Source: an uncultured Ruminococcus sp. (lineage in GTDB: Bacteria > Bacillota > Clostridia > Oscillospirales > Acutalibacteraceae). Taken from it: a stretch of 44,233 bases of DNA. Position 1 is the stretch's first letter. Each line of letters begins with the position of its first letter. Below are positions 3,865 through 7,232 of this stretch, in pieces. Location of the stretch: the NCBI GenBank assembly GCA_902773635.1, contig CACYFH010000017.1, positions 1 through 44,233 on the forward strand. The letters are read 5' to 3'. Below the pieces are notes generated by a model that was not told where the DNA came from, did no database searches, and was given only the letters and a program-made list of their open reading frames with translations. Position numbers and translations under genes: made by a program.

Positions 3865-4533
3865 ATGTCTATCGCTATTGCTATTGACGGTCCCGCCGGT
3901 GCGGGAAAGTCCACGATCGCTAAATTAGCCGCAAAGGAGCTCGGCTTCATCTACGTCGACACCGGCGCGCTCTACCGCACGATCGGTCTCGCGGCTACCC
4001 GCAGAGGGTATACCGCAGAGGATAAGGCGGAGATCATCGCGATGCTTGACGGGATCGCCGTGGAGCTTGCGTTCAATGAGAAGAAGGAGCAGATCGTCCT
4101 TCTGGATAAAGAGGACGTGAGCGGCTTGATCCGCACGCCGGAGATCTCCATGATGGCGTCCGCCGTCTCCGCGATCCCCGAGGTACGCGCCTATCTGCTC
4201 GACCTCCAGCGCAACATGGCGCATACCAACAACGTCATCATGGACGGCAGGGATATCGGCACGGTCGTCCTGCCCGACGCGAAGCTGAAGATCTTCCTCT
4301 CCGCTTCCGCCGAGTGCAGAGCACGCCGCCGCTATGACGAGCTGATCGAGAAGGGTATGGACGTGAAGTACGAGGATATCCTCCGCGACGTGGAGACCCG
4401 CGACTATAACGATTCACACCGCGATATCGCGCCGCTCAAGCCCGCCGAGGGCGCTGTGATGGTCGATACCTCCGGCGAGGATCTGGAAACGTCCGTCAAC
4501 AAATTACTCAACATCATGAGGGAGCACATATGA
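3865..4533 (+). CDS. cmk: Cytidylate kinase
   Basis: (d)CMP kinase, which phosphorylates CMP/dCMP to the diphosphate with ATP in pyrimidine nucleotide recycling. The 222 residues match the family length. The P-loop GPAGAGKS is at residues 9-16, followed by the CMP-binding YVDTGALYR segment, and GRDIGTVVLPDA is present in the middle. AAGGAGA (3853-3859) precedes the ATG by a normal distance. The 3' end overlaps plsC by 4 nt (ATGA), indicating translational coupling in a cmk-plsC-ispH/rpsA operon, a classic clostridial order. Confidence 0.95.
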   Translation: MSIAIAIDGPAGAGKSTIAKLAAKELGFIYVDTGALYRTIGLAATRRGYTAEDKAEIIAMLDGIAVELAFNEKKEQIVLLDKEDVSGLIRTPEISMMASAVSAIPEVRAYLLDLQRNMAHTNNVIMDGRDIGTVVLPDAKLKIFLSASAECRARRRYDELIEKGMDVKYEDILRDVETRDYNDSHRDIAPLKPAEGAVMVDTSGEDLETSVNKLLNIMREHI

Positions 4534-5147
4534 AACGCAATCACTTTTACTTTTTCTGGAGAGCGGTCGTCACGCCGATCTTTTTCCTGATGTACCGCAC
4601 CAAATATATCGGCGCGGAGAACGTGCCGAAGGAGGGCGCCTATATCCTCGCGTCCAACCACCGCCGCGCGACCGATCCGATCCTCATGGGCATCGGTCTC
4701 AAGCGCCAGGTGCTGTTCATGGCGAAGGAGGAGCTGTTCCAAAATAAGTTCCTCAACTGGTTCTTTCGTAAGCTCGGCGCGTTCCCGGTCAGCAGAGGCA
4801 AGGCGGACACCGGCGCGATCCGCCATTTTGAGAACGCCGTCAGCAACGGCTGCCTGATGGGCATTTTCATCGAGGGCACCCGCGCGAAGGACGACAACTT
4901 CCTGCCGCCGAAGAACGGCGCGAGCCTGATCGCATGGGACACCAAGACCCCGGTCATCCCCGTCTGTCATACGAAGATCGGCTCCCGCCTGTATTTCCAT
5001 TACGGCAAGCCGCTGAGCCTGGAGGACATGGGCTTTGAGAAGGGCGGCGCAAGAGAGTTCCGTAACGCCAGCCGCACCATCATGGATCATATCAAGGCTC
5101 TGCGTGAAGAGGATCTCGCCGCAGCCGAGGCGAAGAAGAATGGCTGA
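4530..5147 (+). CDS. plsC: 1-acyl-sn-glycerol-3-phosphate acyltransferase (PlsC-like)
   Basis: A membrane-associated lysophosphatidic acid acyltransferase that adds the second acyl chain in phosphatidic acid synthesis. The catalytic NHX4D-type motif is NHRRATD (His44, Asp49) and the substrate-binding EGTR is at residues 115-118. The length of 205 residues is typical of the short clostridial members. A hydrophobic stretch at residues 6-22 probably anchors it to the membrane. The start overlaps the cmk stop by 4 nt and the stop overlaps the ispH start by 8 nt. The acyl donor (acyl-ACP or acyl-CoA) cannot be told from sequence. Confidence 0.9.
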   Translation: MKRNHFYFFWRAVVTPIFFLMYRTKYIGAENVPKEGAYILASNHRRATDPILMGIGLKRQVLFMAKEELFQNKFLNWFFRKLGAFPVSRGKADTGAIRHFENAVSNGCLMGIFIEGTRAKDDNFLPPKNGASLIAWDTKTPVIPVCHTKIGSRLYFHYGKPLSLEDMGFEKGGAREFRNASRTIMDHIKALREEDLAAAEAKKNG

Positions 5148-7191
5148 GATCATCGTCGCACAGTCCGCGGGCTTCTGCTTCGGCGTGAGCCGCGCGGTGA
5201 AGATCGCCTTTGATGTTGCAGAAAAGGGTCAGGGCGGCTGTACCCTCGGCCCGATCATCCATAATAAGGAGCTCGTGAAGGAGCTGAGCGACAAGGGCGT
5301 TGTGTCCGTTAATTCCGTAGAAGAAATAAACGGACGTCAGCCGGTCATCATCCGCTCCCACGGCGTGGAGCACCATGTCTATGATCAGCTCCGTGATCTG
5401 GGGCTCGAATACATCGACGCGACCTGTCCCTTCGTCTCCAAGATCCACCGGATCGTGTACGAGTGGAGCCGCAAGGATTACCTGATTTTGCTCGCGGGGG
5501 ACGCGAACCACCCCGAGGTGCAAGGCATACTCTCCAACTGCGTAGGTAGGTTCTATACCTTTAACAGCGAAGAAGATTTGCATAATCTTGTCGAAATAAT
5601 TCCGAAAGAGAATTATAAGGGCATTTGTGTGGTCGCTCAGACCACTTTCAATAAAAAAATATGGCAAAATTGTTTAAAAATTTTGAAAAAACTATATACA
5701 AATGCCAAAATTTTTGATACAATATGTAATGCTACGTCAAAGAGACAAGCTGAGGCGCATACGCTGTCGGCTCGCTGTGACTGCATGATCGTGATCGGCG
5801 ACCGTTCCAGTTCCAATACGAATAAGCTCTATTCGATATGCAAAAGCAACTGTGAACGCACCTACATGATCGAGACAGCCGCCGAGCTCGAGAGCGCTAT
5901 GTACGCGGACGCAAGGATCATTGGCGTGACAGCCGGCGCTTCTACACCGGAAAGGATTATAAAGGAGGTACTGGATACAATGAGTGAGAACACTACATCC
6001 AGCGTAAACGAAACTGAGAACTTTGAGGAGATGTTAGAAGAATCTCTGAAGAGTTTGAACACTAATGAAAGGGTTATGGGTACTGTTGCCAGCATTACAC
6101 CCAACGAGGTATATGTTGAAGTCGACGGTAGAAAGCAGACTGGCTTTATCCCATTTGACGAGTTATCATCCACTCCGATTCAGAGCGCCGATGAAGTTGT
6201 CAAGGTCGGCGATCGTGTAGAACTGCTGATTATGAAAACCAACGACGTTGAGGGTACCATCATGCTCAGTAAGCGCAGAGTCGACGCCCAGAAGGGCTTC
6301 GAGGAGCTGCAGAAGGCTTACGATGAGAAGACCGTTCTGACCGGTCTTGTTACCGAGGTCGTCTCCGGCGGCGTGATCGTTGTCTCTAACGACATCCGCG
6401 TATTCGTTCCCGCTTCTCAGGCTACTCTTGAGCGCGACGCGAACCTTGAGGAGCTGAAGGGTCAGGAGGTCAAGTTCCGCCTGATCGAGCTGTCTCAGCG
6501 CGGCAGAAGAAGAAAGATCATCGGCTCCATCAAAAGCGTGCTCCGCGACGAGAACGCGGCGAAGCGTGCTGAGTTCTGGGAGAACTGCGAAGTCGGCAAG
6601 ACCTATACCGGCGTTGTCCGCACCCTGACCTCTTACGGCGCATTCGTTGATCTCGGCGGCGTATCCGGCATGATCCACATCTCCGAGCTGTCCTGGCTGA
6701 GAATCAAGCATCCGAGCGAGGTCGTCAACGTAGGCGATACCGTTGAGGTCTACATCAAGGACATCAACCCCGAGACCAAGAAGATCTCTCTGGGCTACAA
6801 GAAGACTGAGGACAATCCGTGGGTTATCCTCGAGAGAGATTATCCTGTCGGCACTGTCGTCAAGGCGAAGGTTGTCGGTCTGACTACGTTCGGCGCGTTC
6901 GCGAACATCATTCCCGGCATCGACGGTCTGATCCACATTTCTCAGATCTCCAACAAGCGCATCGAGAAGCCCGCTGATGAGCTGGCTGTCGGCGATGAGG
7001 TCGAGGCTAAGATCACCGGTATCGACTTTGAGAAGAAGCGCGTCAGCCTGTCCATCCGTGCACTCCTGCCGGAGAACAACGCTGCTCCTGTCGTTGAGGA
7101 CGCTGAGGATGAGGTCGTTGCAGTCGTCGAGCCCGACGCTGAGCCTGTCATCCGCGATCTTGAGGACGAGACCCCCGCAGACGCTGAATAA
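5140..7191 (+). CDS. ispH: Fused IspH (HMBPP reductase) - ribosomal protein S1
   Basis: A 683-residue two-part protein. Residues 1-280 are IspH, the [4Fe-4S] enzyme that makes IPP and DMAPP from HMBPP at the end of the MEP pathway. All three cluster cysteines are present (Cys13, Cys96, Cys196), as are the substrate residues His41, His74, His124, Glu126, the SSSN motif (223-226) and STP (268-270). From about residue 310 there are four S1 RNA-binding OB domains, beginning near [30 protein letters not shown] and [10 protein letters not shown], then an acidic tail. The fusion is known in Clostridia. A strong internal ribosome binding site lies exactly at the junction (Met281), so S1 may also be made alone. 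The start at 5140 overlaps plsC by 8 nt. Codon use changes towards GCT/GTT in the S1 half, as in rpsB and tsf here. Confidence 0.93.
5683..5723 (+). promoter_or_regulatory. Possible internal promoter for the S1 half, inside ispH
   Basis: An AT-rich patch of the otherwise GC-rich ispH reading frame (about 5566-5735) holds two overlapping hexamer pairs with 17-nt spacers: TTGAAA (5683-5688) with CAAAAT (5706-5711), and TATACA (5695-5700) with TACAAT (5718-5723). Transcription from here would give a leader of roughly 250 nt before the internal S1 start at 5980. Promoter-like hexamers are common in AT-rich DNA, so this is suggestive only. Confidence 0.35.
5961..5982 (+). promoter_or_regulatory. 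rpsA: Internal ribosome binding site and ATG for free ribosomal protein S1
   Basis: AAAGGAGGT (5961-5969), a near-perfect anti-16S complement, precedes an in-frame ATG at 5980 by a usable spacing. This ATG encodes Met281 of the fusion, in [10 protein letters not shown], the linker right after the last IspH motif and before the first S1 domain. Initiation here would give a stand-alone 403-residue S1 protein ending at 7191. An in-frame, near-consensus site placed at the domain boundary is unlikely to be chance. Confidence 0.7.
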
Positions 7192-7201
7192 TTGTTTATG
7201 T

Positions 7202-7232
7202 GCGGGCATCCGAGAGGGTGCCCGCTTTTTCT
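7202..7232 (+). terminator. Rho-independent terminator after ispH/rpsA
   Basis: The stem GCGGGCA (7202-7208) pairs with TGCCCGC (7219-7225), followed by TTTTTCTTTT. It closes the flavoprotein-cmk-plsC-ispH/rpsA unit. Confidence 0.9.

Follow-up and report, generated by a model that had tools for sequence, protein, structure and literature searches.

A conserved internal start in ispH-rpsA fusion genes points to a nested expression unit for ribosomal protein S1

Introduction

Bacteria are known in which IspH, an isoprenoid enzyme, and ribosomal protein S1 are joined in one polypeptide. Most carriers of this fusion, IspH-RPS1, are Firmicutes, Clostridium thermocellum and C. acetobutylicum among them, and some are Gram-negatives such as Fusobacterium (PMC4746011). 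According to the same paper, the carriers were not found to have any further ispH or rps1 gene, and the fusion is read there as a 'Rosetta stone' protein, one that may recruit IspH to the ribosome (PMC4746011). That work treats a single polypeptide, and in its main text the terms 'Shine-Dalgarno', 'internal', 'start codon', 'start site' and 'promoter' all occur 0 times. The fusion is named once in the accessible text of PMC12605070, and an internal start is not treated in the accessible text of PMC6203783 (C. ljungdahlii multi-omics), PMC6705787 and PMC7247131. A preliminary description of the locus studied here had suggested that such a start was undescribed. In agreement with this, no description was found in the open-licence literature; subscription journals and genome-wide start-site tables could hold one.

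Genes with two starts in the same frame and a shorter internal product have been described, among them the proteoform pairs of infB, CheA-S and CcmM-S in the accessible text of PMC11005335. The ispH-rpsA gene resembles these pairs, but what it is predicted to make from the inner start is an entire, different housekeeping protein, and in part of its range a nested promoter-like site is added. A further likeness is found in overlapping ispH/rpsA pairs (L059, L163, L164, L206, L207, L320; L and G denote our loci and genomes), in which the ispH C-terminus contains the same Shine-Dalgarno and rpsA starts a few bases further on. Unlike in the DNA analysed here, rpsA lies in another frame in these pairs and no fusion is made. 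Here, we compare the fusion gene of an uncultured Ruminococcus sp. with its relatives and describe a predicted second, internal start in the frame of the known fusion, together with a candidate promoter and a hairpin that lie within the ispH codons.

Methods

The window is the whole stretch of DNA that was analysed, 44,233 nucleotides of contig CACYFH010000017.1 (assembly GCA_902773635.1). Searches with the fusion protein covered the window's own genome together with 58 relatives (59 genomes), and partly overlapping sets of 196 genomes from the class and 199 from the phylum. From these, 212 loci were analysed, comprising 196 fused, 8 split and 8 partial loci. The 196 fused loci consist of 28 from the genus (window included), 24 from the order, 66 from the class and 78 from the rest of the phylum; the 8 split loci and the partial loci (L033, L038, L043, L046, L054, L060-L062) stand outside this number. 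Loci L002-L005, which are other S1-domain proteins, and the repeats L082, L085 and L087 were dropped. The class and phylum loci were hand-picked among long matches, in most cases one for each family, and the share of fused loci is thus no census. All counts treat related sequences equally, with no tree weighting. Loci from named GTDB assemblies, mostly of uncultured Ruminococcus, Oscillospiraceae and Clostridia from animal guts, were read in 78 of 80 cases (not L274 and L292); one of them, L297, was misread by the search pattern.

For the control with split and unlinked ispH, an IspH-family search was made in 393 genomes of the class, and 30 short-frame ispH loci were picked among the matches listed. 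Adding the split loci described above and six named records brought the control set to 44 loci, 41 of which were classed by rule. The remaining three are L211 and L341, which have masked runs, and L324, which has no start by the rule and one visible by eye. Stand-alone ispH from viral contigs was also tried as a control and gave 31 pattern matches with 0 relatives among them. The folding profile used 190 loci with a Shine-Dalgarno match of at least 6 nt. The analysis of Shine-Dalgarno openness and the RNAalifold runs used 173 loci with the start at the usual place, and the null model used 49 loci of the genus and the order.

Results

The fusion gene of the window, its neighbours and the features described below are collected in Table 1. 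The gene names cmk, plsC, pfkA, atpA, rpsB and tsf are those that we take to be right from the translations in the window.

Table 1 Features of the ispH-rpsA locus in the window.
Feature	Position	Strand	Remarks
cmk	3865-4533		upstream neighbour
plsC	4530-5147		upstream neighbour
ispH-rpsA fusion ORF	5140..7191	+	683 aa; IspH domain, then four S1 domains; from the ORF list
AT-rich, low-GC3 patch in ispH	5572..5751	+	codons 145-204
Candidate -35, TATACA	5695..5700	+	TRTACA with 17 bp spacer in genus and order
Candidate extended -10, TACAAT	5718..5723	+	TTTGA before it; codons GAT ACA ATA (Asp193-Thr-Ile)
Putative leader (~250 nt) of nested rpsA transcript	5730..5979	+	predicted from the -10 position; within ispH codons
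Hairpin	5933..5950	+	codons of Ala265-Gly266-Ala267-Ser268-Thr269-Pro270; wobble covariation in relatives
Internal Shine-Dalgarno, AAAGGAGGT	5961-5969	+	sequence, shuffle test, conservation
Nested rpsA frame	5980..7191	+	in-frame ATG is codon 281; predicted free S1 of 403 aa
Intrinsic-terminator-like hairpin, then T run	7202..7225	+	3' of rpsA

The product of the fusion gene matches NCBIfam NF000907 over its full length and above the curated cut-off (740.9 bits against 624, residues 3-651), and Pfam finds in it a LYTB (LytB/IspH) domain and 4 S1 stretches. It is therefore a member of a known family, as had been supposed, with the same domain order as the IspH-RPS1 protein described by Rao et al. 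2015 (PMC4746011). In the source draft genome, which is 75% complete in 68 contigs, there is one full-length match to the fusion protein, besides which only short S1-domain matches were found, and there is one IspH match. The Shine-Dalgarno match at the ispH start is limited to GAGG. In four draft genomes (G013, G024, G028, G034) the fusion is split across contigs, mostly in or near the AT-rich ispH stretch, so that automatic annotation may miss it.

The near-perfect Shine-Dalgarno and in-frame ATG that had been noticed in the linker between IspH and S1 are present, and the arrangement AAAGGAGGT-N4-12-ATG occurs once in the window, compared with 0.01 occurrences expected from shuffles. Across the phylum sample, a Shine-Dalgarno match of at least 6 nt precedes an in-frame start in the linker in 190 of the 196 fused loci, while 35 of 1279 in-frame ATGs elsewhere in these genes have such a match. 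The best match in the linker is 9 nt long in 54 loci, 8 nt in 51, 7 nt in 69, 6 nt in 16, 5 nt in 5 and 4 nt in 1; the start chosen is ATG in 186, GTG in 7 and TTG in 3. The spacing between Shine-Dalgarno and start is identical in 175/196. Codon choice within the site exceeds what the protein needs: Glu276 is encoded by GAG in 191/192 fused loci, with 69.6 expected from each gene's own usage, and Lys275 by AAG in 110/110, with 50.5 expected. The loci read from named GTDB assemblies have ATG in 77/78 and GAG in 76/78. Set against the candidate ispH starts, the internal Shine-Dalgarno exceeds the longest match at any of them in 173 of the 196 fused loci, equals it in 15 and is shorter in 8, which fits with the minor fusion and major free S1 that the preliminary description had proposed and is no measure of their ratio. 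As a predicted site of initiation, the in-frame internal start is supported about as fully as comparison allows.

There are few exceptions. Fused locus L202 (G399) lacks the internal Shine-Dalgarno at its usual position, with Leu in place of Met. GGG is found where others have GAG in L179, L187, L195 and L213, as well as in L295 of the named GTDB set, and L041 has a 5-nt match only, GGAGG. In fused L188 the Shine-Dalgarno and ATG are shifted 12 codons downstream; a downstream move is also seen in split L208 of the same family (f109), which points to a site that can shift while it keeps its function. Outside the phylum, the linker of the fusion in Fusobacterium vincentii (L304) contains AAGGGGGAT and an in-frame ATG, positioned differently from the usual site, possibly an independent internal start.

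Split and unlinked ispH genes show what becomes of the same codons where S1 is not fused. In split loci such as L059, L163, L164 and L207, ispH stops a few codons past the same Shine-Dalgarno and the ATG or GTG of rpsA lies just behind, in another frame. In the 17 loci where S1 starts before the ispH stop, codon 276 is GAG in 15 and encodes Asn in 1 and Ala in 1, so that all 15 Glu codons are GAG, and in 14/17 the best candidate S1 start uses the Shine-Dalgarno of codons 275-277 in the other frame. In the 24 loci where S1 starts after the ispH stop or is absent from the stretch (L306-L308 are from other phyla, and L301, L302 and L305 are named plasmid-collection records), Glu276 is GAG in 4 and GAA in 13, and the rest are Asp, Lys, Asn or unread. 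The two classes differ in GAG versus GAA with a Fisher p of 7e-6; classing by eye, with L205, L208, L312 and L313 set apart, gave GAG in 15/15 versus 3/13 Glu codons (p 2.2e-5). The signal thus tracks the S1 start and not the enzyme, with few exceptions: L208 has GAG at codon 276 although its S1 start lies elsewhere, and L316, L317 and L329 have GAG with no S1 in the stretch. Together with the fused loci, this contrast bears out conservation of the Shine-Dalgarno beyond the need of the protein, the check that the preliminary description had proposed.

On a 24.6-kb plasmid of Geosporobacter ferrireducens (L301, 1486-2346), an ispH without rpsA keeps AAGGAGG and ATG, with cmk and an acyltransferase gene alongside; this gene may be a relic of a fused copy. 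In Sulfurovum mangrovi (L306) the gene order is ispH-aroA-rpsA, and ispH and rpsA are thus near neighbours outside Bacillota too.

An AT-rich patch with promoter-like hexamer pairs had also been noticed inside ispH. The patch is present, and a consensus scan gave two pairs on its + strand, 5683-5711 and 5695-5723. Over 3.1 kb and both strands, the scan found 5 sites versus 2.0 (sd 1.2) in shuffles, and by itself it is weak evidence for a promoter. The 5695-5723 site, which the scan alone would not have revealed, is convincing because it is conserved in relatives, across the order and in much of the class. At codons 145-204, GC3 drops under the mean of the gene by as much as 0.28 in genus and order loci and as much as 0.10 in class loci, with no dip in the other phylum loci; class loci have a further dip of 0.14 at codons 253-264. 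The GC3 minimum falls on the Asp-Thr-Ile-Cys codons, which read GATACAATATGT.

The TACAAT hexamer is present in every genus locus (28/28), in 19/24 of the order and 43/66 of the class, and in 9/78 loci from the rest of the phylum. TATAAT is found instead in 1 more class locus and 7 more phylum loci, which leaves 62/78 loci of the wider phylum with neither hexamer at this place. In the named GTDB set, 72 of the 78 loci read carry GATACAATATG. A Subdoligranulum variabile record (L303) has the fusion together with GAG and TACAAT at the exact site. The codon of Ile195 is ATA in 28/28 genus loci (5.5 expected), 21/24 order loci (6.2) and 49/63 class loci (17.7). Upstream of TACAAT, TRTACA stands at a 17-bp spacer in 28/28 genus and 16/19 order loci, and in the class there are TTGCAA-like hexamers at an 18 bp spacer, 26/43 of them with 4 or 5 matches to TTGACA. 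Loci that bear TACAAT also have the TG of an extended -10 (28/28 genus, 18/19 order, 39/43 class) and 76-85% AT ahead of the -35. A conserved -35/-10 pair of sigma-70 type with fitting spacing was found only in the order and part of the class, and the -35 is mostly a 4/6 match. Outside the genus, ACAAT follows residue 193 in 60/78 loci with Asp versus 11/72 with Asn (p 1e-14, uncorrected for ancestry), an association that may reflect an influence of the promoter on the protein. Among split and unlinked ispH genes, TACAAT at the exact site occurs in 3/17 loci where S1 starts before the ispH stop versus 5/24 others, and there it has no tie to S1. The candidate promoter is well supported in the window's order and less so beyond it.

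Folding of the mRNA in 40-nt segments over 190 loci places the weakest local structure around the internal start, with means of -2.5 kcal/mol at the start and -2.4 kcal/mol 20 nt after it. The segment centred 40 nt ahead of the start has a mean of -11.3 kcal/mol, and the remaining eighteen range from -4.6 to -6.9 kcal/mol. In the 28 genus loci, a second strong fold (mean -10.7 kcal/mol per 40 nt) is seen about 60 nt after the start, compared with -5.1 in the other 162 loci.

The strong fold ahead of the start corresponds to a small hairpin in which two pairs join wobble position to wobble position and carry no protein constraint. The wobbles of Gly266 and Thr269 pair in 113/195 loci, with 66.0 expected from each locus's own codon usage (z 7.2), and those of Ala265 and Pro270 pair in 128/193, with 75.7 expected (z 7.8); thirteen control wobble pairs range from z -3.1 to 2.3. 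With the genus left out, the hairpin pairs have z 6.1 and 5.8 and the controls -2.4 to 2.8. Composition was considered as the source of this covariation and, with own codon usage as the expectation, was ruled out. A shuffle test was less clear: over all loci the control Ala265:Gly266 was also raised (82 versus 68.9; 65/4000), a few controls were raised in single groups, and the hairpin pairs came out weakly in small groups (Gly266:Thr269 in the genus, 174/4000; Ala265:Pro270 in the order, 326/4000). RNAalifold did not choose the hairpin on the 145-row or the 28-row alignment, so that its support consists of the wobble pairs and the single folds. Considered as a possible autoregulatory ribosomal-protein leader, the region has this small covarying hairpin ahead of the start, and in Rfam no family came near its gathering score (best E 0.44, 21.4 bits versus 120.3). 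The hairpin, which the preliminary description does not mention, is new and, judged by its covariation, probably real as a conserved structure.

Synonymous versions of the sequence upstream fold 2.5 kcal/mol less well than the native one in the 49 loci of the genus and the order, and in 35/49 the native sequence leaves the Shine-Dalgarno more open; together these suggest an insulating role for the hairpin. The two hairpin pairs are formed in 241/388 cases in fusions, 18/30 in overlapping splits and 14/34 in ispH genes that do not overlap rpsA or are unlinked to it (17 loci, assigned by eye). The last value is lower than that of the fusions (p 0.027), which makes a link between hairpin and S1 likely and not firm. 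In the window, the hairpin copy has one C.A mismatch (5937/5946) and the single-sequence fold has the Shine-Dalgarno partly paired, and the hairpin is therefore weaker there than in relatives.

Codon use was said to shift downstream to that of rpsB and tsf. Closeness to these two genes is 0.35 for the IspH part (0.44 without the AT patch) and 0.65 for the S1 part, and the difference between IspH without the patch and S1 codons 305-683 is real (0/5000 permutations). The shift is not sharp at the junction, however, since the rise is near codon 350 and not at 281. Closeness is as high as that of S1 in plsC (0.64), pfkA (0.66) and atpA (0.63), and codon use was for this reason dropped as proof of a greater S1 output. 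As support for a nested unit it is weak.

Discussion

Comparison strongly supports the nested rpsA expression unit that the preliminary description had proposed. The internal start, its Shine-Dalgarno and their spacing are kept at synonymous sites, as are the hairpin and, in the order and much of the class, the promoter-like site. From this conservation we infer initiation, transcription, the relative amounts of the products and the role of the hairpin. We consider it very probable that there is one frame with two starts, in which IspH is made as IspH-S1 and free S1 comes from the nested start, a nested promoter helping in the window's order. Translation from 5140 would give IspH-S1, and as there is no stop after the IspH domain, IspH should be made only with S1 attached, unless it is cut. 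Ribosomes would also initiate at ATG 5980, using a Shine-Dalgarno encoded within the last IspH-domain codons, and would make free S1. In the genus, the order and much of the class, a promoter in ispH formed by the extended -10 TACAAT and the AT-rich sequence upstream would add a shorter rpsA mRNA without IspH, and the small hairpin probably keeps the Shine-Dalgarno unpaired.

Three other explanations of the internal site deny it a present use as a start. The Shine-Dalgarno could be forced by the C-terminal protein sequence of IspH (Lys/Glu-Glu-Val) and have no meaning for translation. These residues are indeed common in IspH, S1-less copies included, and 4/17 Glu codons are GAG where S1 starts later or is absent from the stretch. 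Yet GAA is used in the other 13/17, as opposed to GAG in 191/192 fused loci and all 15 overlapping splits, and one start spacing in 175/196 fused loci also speaks against it; the GAG/GAA contrast largely refutes this explanation, which we find scarcely credible. The site could also be a relic of a two-gene operon, left from a recent fusion of which only the fusion protein now matters. Fused and split forms do occur within the same class, and L301 is a case of the signal persisting without S1, but the fusion spans the phylum and unused synonymous sites should have decayed, while the site is intact in 190/196 loci, and a relic is very improbable. An elongation pause between the IspH and S1 domains, for which the position at the domain boundary would be suitable, is no less improbable: the spacing to a start codon, the low structure around that codon and the use of the same site ahead of the best candidate S1 start in 14/17 overlapping split genes speak against it.

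It is a different question whether the internal start is real and the AT patch no promoter, with free S1 coming solely from the long operon mRNA. The start is kept in 190/196 fused loci while TACAAT and TATAAT are both missing in 62/78 loci of the wider phylum, and consensus scans are weak alone. We gave this explanation more weight because TACAAT at the exact site is not tied to S1 in split loci. Against it stand the synonymous fixation of GAT-ACA-ATA in the genus and the order, the 17-18 bp spacing to a -35-like hexamer and the extended -10 TG that accompanies nearly all TACAAT-bearing loci of the genus, order and class, and we regard it as unlikely though not negligible.

Beyond the frame with two starts, a more tentative idea, which we think has somewhat less than an even chance, is that the last ~100 codons of the ispH domain are of dual use, encoding the enzyme while also forming the promoter, the covarying hairpin and the ribosome binding site of rpsA, and that these signals have shaped the choice of codons and even Asp193. 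The hairpin would then act as a switch or an insulator and determine how much free S1 is made relative to IspH-S1, possibly via S1.

If free S1 is made from the nested start, annotation hides a second gene product at such loci, and the second start would make it understandable that a phylum can carry a ribosomal protein fused to an enzyme of metabolism. Moreover, many ribosomes need not then carry IspH, and the functional link between IspH and the ribosome would need rethinking.
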